This document shows positions 1 through 10,025 of a stretch of DNA of 64,000 bases, in pieces. Made by a program: the position numbers and the translations under genes. The stretch covers positions 1 through 64,000 of the forward strand of contig VBLC01000045.1 in the NCBI GenBank assembly GCA_005879315.1, written 5' to 3'. The notes under the pieces are model-generated. The model worked only from the letters and a program-made list of their open reading frames with translations, was not told the origin of the DNA and made no database searches. Each line of letters begins with the position of its first letter. Position 1 is the first letter of the stretch. This stretch comes from Deltaproteobacteria bacterium. Lineage in GTDB: Bacteria > Myxococcota > Myxococcia > Myxococcales > 40CM-4-68-19.

Positions 1-923
1 CGCGCTATCTGCACATAGTTCGGATCCAGTTCGACGCCAACGCTGCGGTAGCCCACGGACTCCGCTGCGGCGAGCACAGAGCCGGAACCGGCGAATGGGT
101 CCAGCACGATTCCCTCGCCGAGCGGCAGCGCTGCGCGCACCAGCTGCCGCAGGAACGCTTGCGGCTTCAGACTCGGATGGTTAGCCATTGCGCGCTCCGC
201 CGGGCGAGTCGGGTGCGACCGAATCACGTCGCCGAAGGGCTTTTCGCCGGACACGCGGCGCCAACCGCCAGTCTTCCACTTGCGCAGGTTGTCCTGCGCC
301 CTACCTTCGAGGGGCTTTCGGAACGCCAGCCACGGCTCCCACATGGAGCGCGGCATCACGCTCACGCCGGGAAATTCTTCGTGAGCATTCTTTGGGCGGT
401 CGCCGCCCCGCATGGTCATCACTAGCCGCACGATCTCGCCCCGCCGCTCGAACCCCGCGCGCACCACGGCGTTCGCCACGAGATAGGACAGCAGTGGGTT
501 GGAGGCGATCACCACATTGGCGCCCGGTACCAGCACCCGCACCAGTGCCTTCGCCCAGAGTTCGAAGAACCTCTCTAGCTCGGCCAGCTCATTCTTGCTG
601 AGGGTGGTGAAGCGCGGTAGCGGCGACCGGGCATGTCCGTCGAATGACGGCGGGATCCGCCAGACGCCGCCCTTGCCGCTACGCAGCTTGGCCTGCTCCT
701 TCTTGGTGTACTCGACCAGCCCGTAAGGCGGATCCGTCACCACGGCATGGATGCTGCTCTCGCCCAGCTGCCCCAGCCACTCGAGGCAATCCCCCTCGAA
801 CAACGACGCACCGCCGAACGTGAATACTGGCTTGAAGTTGATCCCGCCACCGCCCTCGCCCATGCCCCGCCCCCCCTTGAACGGAACCACGATACAGCGG
901 GGGTCTGACATCGCTCGCCTCAT
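1..923 (-). CDS. DNA methyltransferase, beta class (N6-adenine or N4-cytosine), C-terminus cut by window edge
   Basis: This enzyme would transfer a methyl group from SAM to an adenine or cytosine in DNA. Reading leftward from the ATG at 923, the catalytic DPPYG motif comes first (about residues 64-68) and the SAM-binding motif DPFAGSGS comes near the C-terminus, just before the window edge. That order (motif IV before motif I) marks the beta class. The specificity region should lie between them, around residues 100-200. The ATG overlaps the stop of the upstream small gene (ATGA), so the two are probably co-translated. No restriction nuclease is visible on this side, but the left flank is missing. 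Base specificity cannot be read from the motif alone. The true C-terminus lies beyond base 1. Confidence 0.88.
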   Translation of the reverse strand, partial: MRRAMSDPRCIVVPFKGGRGMGEGGGGINFKPVFTFGGASLFEGDCLEWLGQLGESSIHAVVTDPPYGLVEYTKKEQAKLRSGKGGVWRIPPSFDGHARSPLPRFTTLSKNELAELERFFELWAKALVRVLVPGANVVIASNPLLSYLVANAVVRAGFERRGEIVRLVMTMRGGDRPKNAHEEFPGVSVMPRSMWEPWLAFRKPLEGRAQDNLRKWKTGGWRRVSGEKPFGDVIRSHPTRPAERAMANHPSLKPQAFLRQLVRAALPLGEGIVLDPFAGSGSVLAAAESVGYRSVGVELDPNYVQIA

Positions 924-1126
924 GACCACTTCCCGTCGCGCATTGCGTCGAGCGCCTTCGTCAGGAGCACGCGTACCGCTACGCCGCGCTCGATGCGCAG
1001 ACCAGGGCGCTCATTGTTGAGGAGTTCAGCGAATTTCTCGATCTGCTGCACCATCTCCAGAGGCACACGGGTCGAGATGGTCTTCAGTAGCTCCTTCTCC
1101 ATCGGCGCTTTCCCGCCCTTGCCCAT
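920..1126 (-). CDS. small ribbon-helix-helix-like protein upstream of the methyltransferase
   Basis: This is a 68-residue basic protein. Residues about 17-60 look like a ribbon-helix-helix DNA-binding fold: a short strand (STRVPLEMV), an amphipathic helix (QQIEKFAELLN) and a second helix (AVRVLLTKAL). Such proteins usually act as dimeric repressors or antitoxins. Its stop overlaps the methyltransferase start by ATGA, so it may regulate its own two-gene operon. The start at 1126 has no clear Shine-Dalgarno; an internal ATG at 1102 would remove eight residues. The fold call is by pattern only, without a profile search. Confidence 0.6.
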   Translation of the reverse strand: MGKGGKAPMEKELLKTISTRVPLEMVQQIEKFAELLNNERPGLRIERGVAVRVLLTKALDAMRDGKWS

Positions 1127-1135
1127 CCAAGTCTC

Positions 1136-1164
1136 ACATTGCGTCTACCAAGATCGCTTGTCAA
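1136..1164 (-). promoter_or_regulatory. candidate promoter for the small RHH gene and methyltransferase
   Basis: On the minus strand a perfect -35 hexamer TTGACA (1164-1159) is followed after 17 bases by CAATGT (1141-1136), a weak -10. The gap also holds an inverted repeat, CATTGCG at 1138-1144 with CGCAATG at 1186-1192, and a repeated GATCGC at 1152 and 1171. These could be operator sites for the small DNA-binding protein. The placement is plausible but unproven. Confidence 0.35.
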
Positions 1165-1196
1165 CATGCGGATCGCAGAGATCTCGCAATGCTAAT

Positions 1197-1925
1197 TTAG
1201 CGCTGAACGGGCAGCTCCGAACAGCGGAAGTAGAGGCTGCTGCGGTCGGCGTGCTCGCGCGTCCAGATCAGCACATGGGAGAAGTGGCGGCGGAGGAGCT
1301 CGCTCAGCTCGGAGGCGGAGGCAAATTCGTGGCGATGCTGCTCCTGCGCCTTCTTCGACCCGCCGCGGATGGTCGAGCCGTGCAGGATTCCGCCGGCTGC
1401 CAGCGCCTCTCGCGCCCGCGCGAGGACGCTGTCCATCTCCTGCTCTGTGAAGTACTGGATGGAGGCATCCCAGAGGATGACCTCGAACGCCCGCTGCGGC
1501 AGCTCGCTTTTGCGGATGTCCATCTCTTCGAAGCGCAGGTTGCCGATGGCCTGCCAGCGACGGCGCGCATGGGCGACCGCGCCCGGATGCTGATCGAGTC
1601 CCAGCACGCTCGCGGCGACCGGCGCGATGAAGAGCGCAGCCCCGGCGCCGTCGCCGGAACAGAGATCGAGCACGCGCTTGCCCCGGCAGATCTCGGACGC
1701 GTAGACGCCGCGCTCGAAGAAGTGCGGTTGGCGCCATCGCTCGAAGAAGGCGATGTCGAATCGGTGATCGAAGAAATCCGGCGTCGGAGGAAAGGTCCAG
1801 TCCGTGATGAAACGCAGCCGCACGCCGGCCCGCCAGACTGCTCCAGCCGCGGCGGTCACCGGCGCGAACGCCGCGGAGAGCGCGCGCAACGCCAGCTTGA
1901 CGGCGGGGCGCAGGGCCTCTCTCAT
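1197..1925 (-). CDS. class I SAM-dependent methyltransferase
   Basis: This 242-residue protein carries the glycine-rich SAM-binding motif VLDLCSGDGAGA at about residues 85-96, followed by an acidic position (GLDQHP) and the later LWDASIQYF segment, as in the Rossmann-fold methyltransferase family. The substrate is not recognisable. The N-terminal 35 residues are Ala-rich and could touch the membrane. Its ATG overlaps the stop of the preceding gene (ATGA), so it is the last gene of a purS-purQ-exported protein-methyltransferase operon. Confidence 0.8.
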   Translation of the reverse strand: MREALRPAVKLALRALSAAFAPVTAAAGAVWRAGVRLRFITDWTFPPTPDFFDHRFDIAFFERWRQPHFFERGVYASEICRGKRVLDLCSGDGAGAALFIAPVAASVLGLDQHPGAVAHARRRWQAIGNLRFEEMDIRKSELPQRAFEVILWDASIQYFTEQEMDSVLARAREALAAGGILHGSTIRGGSKKAQEQHRHEFASASELSELLRRHFSHVLIWTREHADRSSLYFRCSELPVQR

Positions 1926-2458
1926 TGATCGAGCCTGAGCCGACCGAGGATGGCCGGGTAGATCGCCCGCAGCGCCCTGCGCTTTTCGCTCTCGTCCTTG
2001 GCGCCTTTGAGCTTCACGCCGAAGGGCGAGAGACCCACCTCGATGTGCGGAAGTCCAGCCCGCGCCAGCTCTTGCTGCGCTGCCTTCGCCTCGGCCTGCA
2101 GCCCTTCCAGCTCGAAGACGAGCTTGTCGGTCGGATGCGCGCGAAACTGCGCGTAGCAGGCTGCGTCCTTGACGGAGGTGCAGGAGGGCAGAGGCCCCGG
2201 CTCGGGAAAGGCCGTATCGATGGCGACTTCCACCACGTGCACCTCGTGGCGCCCGAAGAGAAACGCGCGCGCGATCCCCTTCGCCTGCGGCTCGAGCAAG
2301 AGCTCGTTGCCGCTGGGAAGCAGCTCAGCGTGCAGCGGCCCCTCCGTCTCGACGGCGACGAAGCCCGGCCTCACTTTCTCGATGGCGTGCGCGCCCGCGC
2401 GCAGCGAAAGTCGCGCATCGGCGGGAATGGCGAGAAGCAGCGCTGCCGCTGCGATCAA
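1922..2458 (-). CDS. exported protein with a possible pilus-formation N-terminal domain
   Basis: This 178-residue protein starts with a hydrophobic segment ([10 protein letters not shown], then PADA) that looks like a Sec signal peptide. The next roughly 65 residues ([20 protein letters not shown] through [13 protein letters not shown]) follow the pattern of the short all-beta domain at the N-terminus of CpaC/secretin-type pilus proteins. The rest is unrecognised, with a pair of cysteines (SCTS and DAACY). The start is TTG at 2458, overlapping the purQ stop as TTGA. A role in secretion or surface structures is suggested only by the domain resemblance; the purine neighbours do not explain it. 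Confidence 0.55.
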
Positions 2459-3147
2459 CCGACGGCCTCGAGGATGCTCTCGAACAGCCGGCGCCCGTCC
2501 TCGCCGCCCAGCACGGCCTCGGCGAGCCGTTCGGGATGCGGCATCATCCCCATCACGTTGCCGCGGGCGTTGGTGATGCCGGCGATGTCGGCGAGCGAGC
2601 CGTTGGGGTTGCTGCCGGGCGTGCCGCGAACGCCGGCGGCGTCGCTGTAGCGGAAGGCGACCTGCCCCTCGCTCTCCAGCCGCCGCAGCCCCTCGTCGTC
2701 GATGAAGTAGTTGCCGTCTCCGTGGCCGATGGGGATGCGGATCACTTGCCCCTTGGCGTACTTGCGCGTCCAGGGCGTGAGCGCGTTCTCCACCTTGAGG
2801 TGCACGTCGCGGCAGACGTACTTCAAGGAATCGTTGCGGCGCATCGCGCCCGGCAACAGGCCTGCCTCCAGCAGGATCTGGAAACCGTTGCAGATGCCGA
2901 TCACGTGTCCGCCCCGCTGCGCGAAGCGGCGCACCTCTTCCATGATCGGCGAAAAGCGCGCGATGGCCCCGGTGCGCAAGTAGTCGCCGTAGGAAAATCC
3001 GCCGGGCAGGACCACGACGTCGGCACCGCGCAAATCGCGATCCTTGTGCCAGACGTAGCGCGCCGCGCAGCCGAGGACGTGCTTGGCGACGTGGTAGACG
3101 TCGTGGTCGCAGTTGGAGCCGGGGAAGACAACGACCGCAAAGAGCAT
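2455..3147 (-). CDS. purQ: phosphoribosylformylglycinamidine synthase, glutaminase subunit
   Basis: PurQ releases ammonia from glutamine for the fourth step of purine synthesis (FGAR to FGAM) and works with PurS and PurL. The 230-residue protein begins [12 protein letters not shown] and has the oxyanion/LPGG strand ([12 protein letters not shown], about 47-58), the nucleophile cysteine in GICNGFQ (about residue 86) and the later MPHPER triad segment. Its ATG at 3147 overlaps the purS stop by one base (TGATG), which excludes longer in-frame starts. PurL is about 9 kb away rather than adjacent. Confidence 0.95.
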
Positions 3148-3389
3148 CAGGCCGGCTCCTCGATGCGGTACTCCTCGATCACGGTGTTGGCGAGGAGCTT
3201 CTCGCACATCTCTTTCAGCCGCTCGCGCGCCTTGCGCGCGTCGGACTCCTCCAGCTCGAGCTCGATGATCTTGCCCAGCCGCACGTCCTTCACCTCGGTG
3301 AAACCGAGCGCGCCGAGGGCGCGGCCGACCGCCTGCCCCTGCGGATCGAGCACCGAGCGCTTGAGGGTGACCACCACGCGAGCTTTCAC
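3147..3389 (-). CDS. purS: phosphoribosylformylglycinamidine synthase subunit PurS
   Basis: PurS is the small bridging subunit of the three-part FGAM synthase complex. I chose the GTG at 3389 because an AGGAG lies seven bases upstream and it gives an 80-residue protein of normal family length, starting [20 protein letters not shown]. The longer frame from 3458 would add about 23 residues that do not belong to the family. The pattern of a short beta strand, helix ([12 protein letters not shown]) and RLGK strand fits PurS. It is first in the purS-purQ operon. Confidence 0.93.
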
Positions 3390-8311: not shown

Positions 8312-9007
8312 TCAATGCATCATGCGCATCTGCGCCGGCGCCACGCGCTCGCGCAGGTACTTGTCGATCACCTGCCGGTACTCGGTCAGATCGCGGCAGC
8401 CCTGCATCAGCCACTCCCCGCCGATGACCAGCGCGGGGACGCCCTTGATGCCGAGCGCCTCCGCCTCCTCGACCGAGTCGGTCACTTCCGGCTCCAGATG
8501 GGAGTCGTCGAGCCGCTCGACGAAGCGGGTCAGGTCGAGCCCCACCTGCGCGGCCAGTTCCAGCTGCACGTCGCGGCGGGCGACGTTGATGCCTTCGATG
8601 AAGGCCGCGCGCCTCATGGCCTTGAGCAGCGCCCGCTGCCACTCGGATCCCTGCGGCAACGCCGCCTCGAGCGCGACCAGCGGAGGGAGCGAGCTCGAGG
8701 GCGGGTCGGCTCCGGTCCAGAGATCGGCCGTGATGCCCGCGCCCTCGCGCTCGCGCGAGACGCGCCGGAAGTGGCGCGCCAGGACCGCCCGCTCCTTCTT
8801 GTCGGGCAGCTGGTTCTCCGGCCGCAGCGGATAGGGACGCAGCCTCCAGCGCACAAGCGGCCCGTACTCGTCGCGCAGGTACTCGAGCCGCGCATCGGCC
8901 ACGTAGCACCAGGAGCAGAGAACGTCGTGGTACAGCACCAGCTCTAGAGCGGCCGGCTCTCCCTGCAGGCGCTGGAGGACCGCGCCTTGGGCGGGGCGAA
9001 TCGCCAT
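8312..9007 (-). CDS. DsbA-family (FrnE-like) thioredoxin-fold protein
   Basis: This 231-residue protein has the thioredoxin-like active site CSWC in LYHDVLCSWCYV at about residues 30, then a helical insertion, and the cis-proline region GVPALVIGG near the C-terminus. That layout matches FrnE-like DsbA oxidoreductases, which act on disulfides or isomerise 2-hydroxychromene-type substrates. No signal peptide is seen, so it is likely cytoplasmic. I chose the ATG at 9007 because the upstream frame to 9061 has no family residues. A GGGAGAG lies about nine bases before it. Confidence 0.85.
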   Translation of the reverse strand: MAIRPAQGAVLQRLQGEPAALELVLYHDVLCSWCYVADARLEYLRDEYGPLVRWRLRPYPLRPENQLPDKKERAVLARHFRRVSREREGAGITADLWTGADPPSSSLPPLVALEAALPQGSEWQRALLKAMRRAAFIEGINVARRDVQLELAAQVGLDLTRFVERLDDSHLEPEVTDSVEEAEALGIKGVPALVIGGEWLMQGCRDLTEYRQVIDKYLRERVAPAQMRMMH

Positions 9008-9062
9008 GCATCGAGTCTCTCCCGACGAGGCGGCGCCGGGCAAGGAAAATGCTGGCCTCACA

Positions 9063-9124
9063 CTTCAGGTCTCAGGCCTCAAGAAAAGAGAGTCACCCTG
9101 AAGCCTGAAGCCTGAGGTCTGAAG
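9063..9124. repeat. inverted array of the heptamer CCTGAAG
   Basis: Four direct heptamers (CCTGAAG, CCTGAAG, CCTGAGG, TCTGAAG) run from 9097 to 9124. Facing them, 9063-9083 contains three more in reverse orientation. The two 21-base outer arms match at 17 of 21 positions, so the transcript could fold into a long hairpin. The array lies between the DsbA-like and RimK-like genes and includes the last codons and stop (9093-9095) of the latter. It could serve as a terminator or be an inserted short repeat. Confidence 0.7.
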
Positions 9125-10025
9125 CCTTCTTCACTGCCTCCTCGACGATCGCTCCCGCGACGTCGAGACCGGTCGCCCGCTCGAGCCCTTCGAAGCCGGG
9201 GCTGGAATTCACCTCCATCACCTTGGGGCCGTCAGCCGACTCGAGCAGATCGACGCCGGCCACGTCCAGGCCGAGCACGCGCGCCGCTTGCACGGCCGCC
9301 TCCTCGTAGTCGCGCGACAGCGTAAGCGCGGTGCCGGCGCCGCCCCGGTGCAGGTTGCTGCGGAACTCGCCGCTCTTGGCCGCTCGCCGCATGGCGCCGA
9401 CCACGCGCTCGCCGACCACCAGCGCACGGATGTCCGAGCCGCGCGATTCGGCGACGAACTCCTGCAGGAGAATCTGCTCGCCGAGATCCCAGAGGGTGGA
9501 GAGGATGCTCTCGACCTCGGCCTCGCTGTGGGCGATCATCACGCCCACTCCTTGCGTGCCCTGGATGAGCTTGAGGATGGCAGGCAGGCCGCCCACCTGC
9601 GCGACCAGGTCCTTTACCTCGCCGCCGCCGCGCGCCAGCACGGTGCGGGGGATGCGCACGCCTGCGGCGGCGAGCTGCTGCAGGGCGGCGAGCTTGTCGC
9701 GGCTGCGGGCGATGGCGGCGGCGCCATTGAGCAGCGGCACGCCTTGCGCCTCGAGCTGGCGGACCACGGCCAGCCCCGCCGCGGTGACGCTCGCGCCGAT
9801 GCGCGGCAGCACGACCGAGAGCCCGCGCAGCTCCTTGCCGCGGTGGAAGATGCGCGGCTTGCCCGACTCGAGAACGAGATTGCACTTGAGCACGTCGACG
9901 ACGCGGGTGCGAAAGCCGCGGGCGCGCGCCGCCTCGAGCAACCGGCGGCTCGAGTACAGGCTCTTCTTGCGCGAGAGCAGCGCGAGCGTCGCCCGCAGCT
10001 TTACGCGCCTCACCACCCGGGCCAT
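9093..10025 (-). CDS. RimK-like ATP-grasp ligase
   Basis: This 310-residue protein follows the RimK family, which ligates amino acids such as glutamate to protein or peptide carboxylates with ATP. The N-terminal domain (about 1-110) is followed by the ATP-grasp region, with SRDKLAALQQLAAAGVRIP, the ATP-loop lysine in AILKLIQGTQGVGV (about 165-178), QEFVAES, and the metal-binding KVMEVNSSPGFEGLE near 270-285. The last ten residues (ASDLRLQASG) are encoded by the heptamer array, so the original C-terminus was probably altered. The actual substrate is not known. Confidence 0.88.
   Translation of the reverse strand: MARVVRRVKLRATLALLSRKKSLYSSRRLLEAARARGFRTRVVDVLKCNLVLESGKPRIFHRGKELRGLSVVLPRIGASVTAAGLAVVRQLEAQGVPLLNGAAAIARSRDKLAALQQLAAAGVRIPRTVLARGGGEVKDLVAQVGGLPAILKLIQGTQGVGVMIAHSEAEVESILSTLWDLGEQILLQEFVAESRGSDIRALVVGERVVGAMRRAAKSGEFRSNLHRGGAGTALTLSRDYEEAAVQAARVLGLDVAGVDLLESADGPKVMEVNSSPGFEGLERATGLDVAGAIVEEAVKKASDLRLQASG

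Follow-up and report, generated by a model that had tools for sequence, protein, structure and literature searches.

Restriction-modification genes that enter a new cell need timing, or else the cell kills itself. C proteins are helix-turn-helix proteins, and the SsoII and Ecl18kI methyltransferases are cytosine-5 enzymes that carry a fused helix-turn-helix. For the latter two, excerpts of the literature describe a part that binds DNA and is linked to the methyltransferase, with an operator that overlaps the methyltransferase promoter (PMC3874152 and PMC6100179, in excerpt), with precedents for methyltransferase self-repression via the N-terminal helix-turn-helix and for promoters responding to methylation of the cognate site (PMC3874152, in excerpt). 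The C-protein systems, such as Kpn2I and others, employ a small DNA-binding controller (PMC6237814, in excerpt), and ribbon-helix-helix (RHH) proteins are described in the cases of Omega and PaaR as repressors of a toxin-antidote operon (PMC3874152, in excerpt). The tail-to-tail arrangement of a Type II system, as in pP62BP1, is called 'rather uncommon' in an excerpt of PMC3346939.

How does the present locus compare with these systems? The window, i.e. the whole stretch of 64,000 nucleotides that was analysed (bases 1-64000 of contig C104, which has 75,754 bases in a 125-contig assembly), starts with a methyltransferase gene preceded by a gene for a 68-aa protein. Like SsoII and Ecl18kI, it associates a DNA-binding part, here a putative one, with a methyltransferase, and like the C-protein systems it has a small, again putative, DNA-binding controller. 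In contrast to the cytosine-5 enzymes SsoII and Ecl18kI with their fused helix-turn-helix, the methyltransferase is a beta-class amino enzyme and the RHH-like protein comes from a separate gene; most relatives of this methyltransferase differ from SsoII and Ecl18kI as well, having a winged-helix-like domain with the operator GACGTC-NN-GACGTC. Unlike C proteins, the window protein has no helix-turn-helix match and fits RHH by profile comparison of its family, in keeping with the earlier note, which had placed an RHH-like partner in a controller type of its own; and unlike Omega and PaaR, which control toxin-antitoxin systems, it precedes a restriction-modification pair. Most of the relatives are tail-to-tail as in pP62BP1, their ends overlapping or touching those of the nuclease, whereas the pP62BP1 methyltransferase is a cytosine-5 enzyme and the window's own nuclease would lie on the same strand.

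We consider it likely that the window pair forms the 5' portion of a Type II restriction-modification operon composed of an RHH-like controller, a methyltransferase and, across an assembly gap, a same-strand restriction endonuclease. What would be new here is the RHH-like controller in a system of Type II; the enzymes do not constitute a new class, and the methyltransferase is no orphan. In the open-access literature, judged mostly from titles and the starts of abstracts, no RHH or CopG controller of restriction-modification was found; by titles and abstract starts there was also nothing on the window's methyltransferase family, and no open-access paper was found on a GACGTC-NN-GACGTC operator or on winged-helix autorepression.

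Both genes are on the minus strand, the 68-aa frame at 1126-920 being followed by the methyltransferase frame from the ATG at 923, and the ATGA at 923-920 is at once the stop of the former and the start of the latter. Because base 1 of the window is base 1 of contig C104, and the methyltransferase frame is still open at base 3 with its 3' end missing, the absence of a nuclease is not something the window can tell. The features are as follows.

1..923, minus strand: beta-class amino DNA methyltransferase (Type II M), 307 aa readable, C-terminus past the contig end, 87 distinct relatives
920..1126, minus strand: 68-aa RHH-like protein, putative controller, with the ATGA overlap and a relative before the same methyltransferase in locus L002
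1127..1196, minus strand: intergenic region upstream of the operon, presumed promoter/operator, with TTGACA at 1164-1159 and no GACGTC-NN-GACGTC
1197..1925, minus strand: class I SAM-dependent methyltransferase, a passenger in the insertion, unmatched at E<=1e-20 among 14 related genomes
1922..1929, no strand: insertion junction on contig C104, where homology to empty-site genomes ends
1922..2458, minus strand: conserved flank gene, function not assigned, after purQ in G001, G002, G003 and G007
2455..3207, minus strand: purQ-like gene, conserved flank, conserved in related genomes

The last of these is presumably purQ-like. The SAM-dependent methyltransferase at 1197-1925 overlaps the end of the flank gene by four bases, inside the insertion. 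Upstream of the operon, GCGATC occurs at 1176-1171 and 1157-1152, in a number close to chance expectation by our estimate, and a promoter scan of window positions 1-2600 returned 0 sites; the two GCGATC copies and the TTGACA are only leads for a candidate site of the RHH-like protein.

An order of DPPY (motif IV) before FAGSGS (motif I) is the beta order of amino methyltransferases, and in the window TDPPYG precedes LDPFAGSGS. The motifs and the ATGA overlap with the small protein, both noticed earlier from the letters, are there as described, and the suggested search against N6_N4_Mtase returned a clear match (Pfam PF01555, E 1.1e-18), besides one to the PADLOC Type II model MTase_II (PDLC03215, E 4.4e-111). 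Relatives were gathered from a scan of public genomes (the best 80 of 145 related stretches being kept), from viral contigs (7 loci) and from a relatives search that added genomes G109 and G013; a close methyltransferase frame is present in 92 loci, which, minus the duplicates L001, L083, L103 and L108 and with the window counted once, give 88 distinct loci and hence 87 relatives. Among these best 80 of 145 stretches and the additions, the relatives share 61.7-78% identity with the window enzyme and come from many phyla, those on the seven viral contigs lying at 61-70%. Within the window's own phylum, members at E<=1e-60 occur in 4 of 195 genomes, its own included; none of the six same-genus genomes has one at that threshold, nor at 1e-10. 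In G013 (contig C184; L085, L125-L126), the methyltransferase relative has a nuclease down to two pieces, i.e. it is a decaying copy.

Judged by profile comparison, the 68-aa protein appears to be RHH-like; its structure prediction is poor. A search against RHH profiles, as proposed in the earlier note, gave a divided answer, the window protein having no Pfam match of its own and its family, taken together, resembling RHH proteins. This family has eight members, namely the proteins of the window and of L002 plus six of the other eight matches (L117 and L118 were dropped, and L112 is L002 again); the window protein is 31% identical to the one preceding the L002 methyltransferase and 23-35% identical to six small proteins of related genomes. 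Compared by hhalign with 21 of the 23 Pfam-RHH_1 proteins, the eight-member family reached a probability of 77.8 over the strand and both helices (~45 residues), the controls staying at or below 1.7 in 50 column shuffles and at 7.2 for a winged-helix set; with fewer members the value falls, to 40.9 for the window and L002 together and to 19.2 for the window protein alone. Within the family, though not for the window protein, there are weak matches to RHH_5 (one member, E 0.0032) and to Arc (three members, best E 0.017). The window protein itself has weak PHROG matches, the best being phrog_4738, 'transcriptional repressor' (E 0.015), with five more PHROGs whose function is not known, and a weak NCBIfam match, YlcI/YnfO (E 0.056); at E<=1, nothing with HTH in its name was matched in Pfam, NCBIfam or PHROGs. 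AlphaFold, run on a two-sequence alignment, placed helices at 6-16, 23-39 and 47-63 and no strand (pLDDT 67.1, pTM 0.40), and Foldseek with this weak model gave no match at E<=0.001. No relatives of the protein were found in viral contigs. Small RHH-like genes of one family, often with LNxxQPGIxA...AARMLLxRALxQVE, occur in several genomes of the window's family (L111, L113, L115, L116 and L119); this family is a possible source of the controller.

What stands in this position in the other loci? A fused N-terminal winged-helix-like extension (RDAI...SSVRSYLxLN...RGxYRL) is present in 73 of the 88 distinct loci, a class set by the SSVRSYL motif alone. 'Winged-helix-like' is our reading of the sequence, since the domain matches known families only weakly (HARE-HTH in 2 of 15, best E 0.0044; DUF7669 in 7 of 15, best E 0.00059). 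In L004 the domain is encoded on its own, by a gene that shows the same ATGA overlap with the methyltransferase. In the plasmid loci L121, L122 and L162 it likewise has its own gene, and the overlap with the annotated start of the methyltransferase amounts to 19, 4 and 4 bases, respectively. Three loci (L073, L077 and L081) have a fused XRE-type helix-turn-helix, L073 by profile scan (Pfam HTH_3, E 3.1e-12) and L077 and L081 by a shared motif. No winged-helix-like domain, fused or separate, was found ahead of the methyltransferase of the window or of L002, the window's nearest relative; these two and L106 carry an RHH-like gene instead, and the operator is missing from all three.

The operator in question, GACGTC-NN-GACGTC, lies within 450 bp upstream of the methyltransferase core in all 73 fused-winged-helix loci and in L004, in none of the three XRE loci, and in none of the 11 others, which include the window, L002 and L106 as well as L005, a locus with its own winged-helix-like frame that starts at a contig edge with only 254 bp upstream and is not judgeable. 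Outside the upstream stretch there is no copy in 1,081,604 bp of the same loci, nor does the operator occur upstream of the window operon or anywhere in the G000 assembly. Among plasmid records that had no part in motif discovery, all ten fetched (of 219 with a match; four are near-identical) have the domain and the operator once, and a halovirus member without the domain lacks the operator too. The operator therefore travels with the winged-helix domain. A scan of viral contigs with GACGTCYRGACGTCTA yielded 34 contigs, with one methyltransferase homologue (28%) and no winged-helix domain or nuclease, which was judged to be chance background and speaks neither for nor against the operator. The operator mostly falls between a -35 and a -10 element that are spaced 16-18 bp apart. 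For 52 of 74 sites, 9 of 12 promoter matches are reached, a level that 15 of 1780 random positions attain; the -35 and the operator itself overlap in about 8 of the 74. The operator is easy to test, besides being short and exact.

Since the operator consists of two copies of a 6-bp palindrome, GACGTC, the site of AatII/ZraI, is attractive as the system's own recognition site. The hexamer is not depleted in G000 (2721 in 4.43 Mb, ~614 per Mb); ten same-genus or same-family genomes without a close methyltransferase relative have ~430-880 per Mb, and the other three genomes with a close relative have low values (G011 ~347, G109 397 and G013 435 per Mb, genome sizes rounded). An excerpt of PMC12160562, the single methylome paper on bacteria or archaea that was found, assigns GACGTC to an m5C enzyme in the haloarchaeon Natrinema, an enzyme class other than the window's.

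Could the small protein be an RHH gene, antitoxin-like or of a local RHH family, that precedes the methyltransferase by chance and controls nothing? Such a coincidence is given some substance by the similar small genes in 8 of the 21 genomes searched, own genome counted, and by L106, where the small protein that overlaps the methyltransferase start belongs to another RHH subfamily (NikA-like, E 9.3e-6 and 26.1 bits, the cut-off being 27). It is nevertheless unlikely in our view, given the translational overlap with the methyltransferase, the identical order in L002, the winged-helix-like gene that occupies the exact slot in L004 (which stands beside the pair in the tree, without starred support), and the absence of the operator precisely where no winged-helix domain is seen, L005 being not judgeable.

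If the small protein is a controller, how was it acquired? In the careful tree, the window and L002 form a sister pair (100/89) within the winged-helix part, with L004 as their neighbour (94/79, below the star), and L106 represents a separate origin, two changes being forced by starred branches. The nesting of the RHH lineage within the winged-helix clade is seen in the best tree but was not retained as a result: an alternative that groups all 82 winged-helix rows in a single clade and leaves the RHH pair outside was not rejected (AU p 0.258), and in the quick tree it scored better (p 0.679). Our reading is that, in the lineage of the window, a separate winged-helix gene gave way to an RHH gene at this position and that the operator left with the old controller. 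More broadly, it may be that one phylum-spanning methyltransferase family uses interchangeable controllers, each of which has an operator of its own (winged helix as a fused domain or a separate gene, XRE as a fused domain, RHH as a separate gene), and that RHH replaced a separate winged helix in the window's lineage; this is a tentative proposal, to which we would give slightly less than an even chance. If it is true, RHH proteins form a further class of restriction-modification controllers beside C proteins and self-repressing methyltransferases. The family, in which the enzyme is little changed (62-78% identity) and the switch and its DNA site change together, offers a natural experiment on the evolution of timing.

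The nucleases that accompany the family are also of more than one type. The common one, type A, is defined by a single profile at E<=1e-3, with orientation taken from the best-scoring match per locus; the profile matches 71 of the 87 relatives (11 of the 71 matches being shorter than 150 aa). Going by the best match, the nuclease gene is convergent with that of the methyltransferase in 68 cases; in 65 of the 68 it ends no more than 110 bp from the methyltransferase end, overlapping or touching it. GHPDL and GxExK are invariant in an alignment of 48 type A sequences, which is the PD-(D/E)XK pattern. The first 22 Foldseek rows for the predicted structure of the L002 protein (pLDDT 89.8) are Type II restriction enzymes; only NaeI passes E 0.001 (E 9.1e-4), followed by BglI, EcoRV, SfiI and NlaIV, with TM-scores of ~0.3, and VIA-align likewise puts NaeI first (Z 10.0, rmsd 3.9, 146 residues). 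A second type, B, stands on the same strand where the convergent nuclease usually stands (L038, L051, L067 and L084, 60-64% identical to the L079 copy at 8928-9548); the L079 copy has no Pfam, NCBIfam or PADLOC match. The 16 relatives without type A thus comprise the four with type B, three (L037, L053 and L063) whose sequence ends at or within 252 bp of the gene, and nine with neither explanation. A convergent nuclease was at first expected for the window genome as well, because 68 of the 87 relatives have one; a profile search of the whole assembly found no type A nuclease (positive control G011, E 6e-105), and the enzyme on contig C11 is a different, same-strand one.

This enzyme came to light at the other end of the assembly gap. 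In same-genus genomes, purQ is followed, with (G001-G003) or without (G004-G006) the gene corresponding to 1922-2458, by a convergent gene, which in the window's genome lies at 5346-5813 on contig C11 (6271 bases), 458 bases from the contig end. In G003 (L192), the stretch matching C11 4884-5809 is 1-954 and the one matching window 1929-3296 is 966-2339, which leaves 11 bp between them; the same two flanks are 4 bp apart in G002 (L196) and 145 bp apart in G001 (L201), and in G004-G006 purQ adjoins the same C11 gene. These adjoining flanks are the empty site, which puts base 1 of C104 and base 6271 of C11 at the two sides of one gap; the join is based on synteny and gene identity, not on reads. 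On the minus strand of C11, 6269-6030 encodes the terminal 79 aa of an open reading frame that reads in the methyltransferase's direction and matches PADLOC REase_II (PDLC03399, E 1.9e-15). Its single match in a plasmid collection (35% over 77 aa, E 8e-8) is the C-terminus of a 356-aa 'hypothetical protein' directly after the homologous methyltransferase on Microvirga plasmid pMVF16-3, itself a match to PDLC03399 (E 1.1e-89). The insertion is therefore best read as a Type II restriction-modification insertion. If the layout is as in Microvirga, about 0.9 kb would be missing in the gap and the whole insertion would come to ~3.3 kb; the fragment shows no catalytic motif, and the N-terminal ~257 aa would fall in the gap. 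Given the 79 aa seen and the join by synteny, a cognate restriction endonuclease gene probably stands beside the methyltransferase. L002 pairs its RHH-like gene and methyltransferase with the convergent nuclease type, so the window's partner differs from that of its nearest relative; as neither type A nor type B proteins show clear similarity to the Microvirga enzyme, the nucleases of the window and L002 appear unrelated, with methyltransferases that are 78% identical.

The earlier note had seen no nuclease, which is an assembly artefact: the contig ends inside the methyltransferase, and the end of C11 carries the 3' end of a Type II restriction enzyme. This is not an orphan methyltransferase in the sense of one with no restriction gene nearby, and the case illustrates how a restriction system can take on the appearance of one through a gap in the assembly. 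A prophage or integrated element with its bulk to the left, offered there as an alternative, loses ground as well, for no integrase or phage gene is present in the readable insertion (window 1-1928, C11 5814-6271; the gap is unread), its ends abut conserved genes, and all 465 matching phage records lie below 60% identity; a phage or prophage origin was accordingly rejected. Nor does the left flank, extended over the gap, contain only housekeeping genes, a finding that, together with a small protein devoid of the RHH fold, had been named as fatal to the two-gene reading; the chromosome is conserved only after the restriction enzyme.

It is conceivable that the system is degenerate, with the restriction or the methyltransferase gene broken in the gap and only modification, or nothing, left. 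Decay does happen, since the nuclease of the G013 relative is reduced to two fragments; against it, every readable part of the insertion is an open frame without stops, and we regard this possibility as quite improbable. That the pair is a solitary methyltransferase with a small regulator, the C11 fragment belonging to something else, is very doubtful, for although the common convergent nuclease is not in the assembly (by the search with the G011 control above) and orphan-like members may exist among the nine relatives without a type A, B or C nuclease that are not cut short nearby by a contig end (L008, L015, L019, L027, L035, L040, L069, L071 and L105), C11 provides the second flank of this very empty site and bears the correctly oriented end of a Type II restriction enzyme.

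How might a three-gene Type II operon of this kind work? It would sit in an insertion between the purQ-linked gene and the conserved convergent gene. The 68-aa protein may bind the 70-bp region upstream of itself and repress, or time, the operon, and would in this way do the job of the winged-helix-like domain that in most relatives presumably acts through GACGTC-NN-GACGTC. Controller and methyltransferase would be translationally coupled, and methyltransferase and nuclease would share one site, the cell being protected while incoming unmethylated DNA is cut.

Some further observations concern the nucleases. On small enterobacterial plasmids and others, the convergent nuclease is annotated as 'hypothetical protein' (L120 2044-2649, L164 1235-1840, L166 3361-3966, L163 2354-3073 and L161 3380-3985), a label used wherever the gene is listed in the fetched records; naming it would therefore help the annotation of defence genes. 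In L005, two related nuclease-like genes, one same-strand and one convergent (1181-2068 and 2076-2723), stand behind one methyltransferase, and the same-strand nuclease-like type of L005 recurs on the M. avium plasmid L122. No relatives of the Microvirga enzyme were found in viral contigs or among solved structures; Haloferax virus Halfgib1 (L205 2336-3457 and 973-2187) has a 26% identical relative of it (E 5e-19) beside a cytosine methyltransferase.
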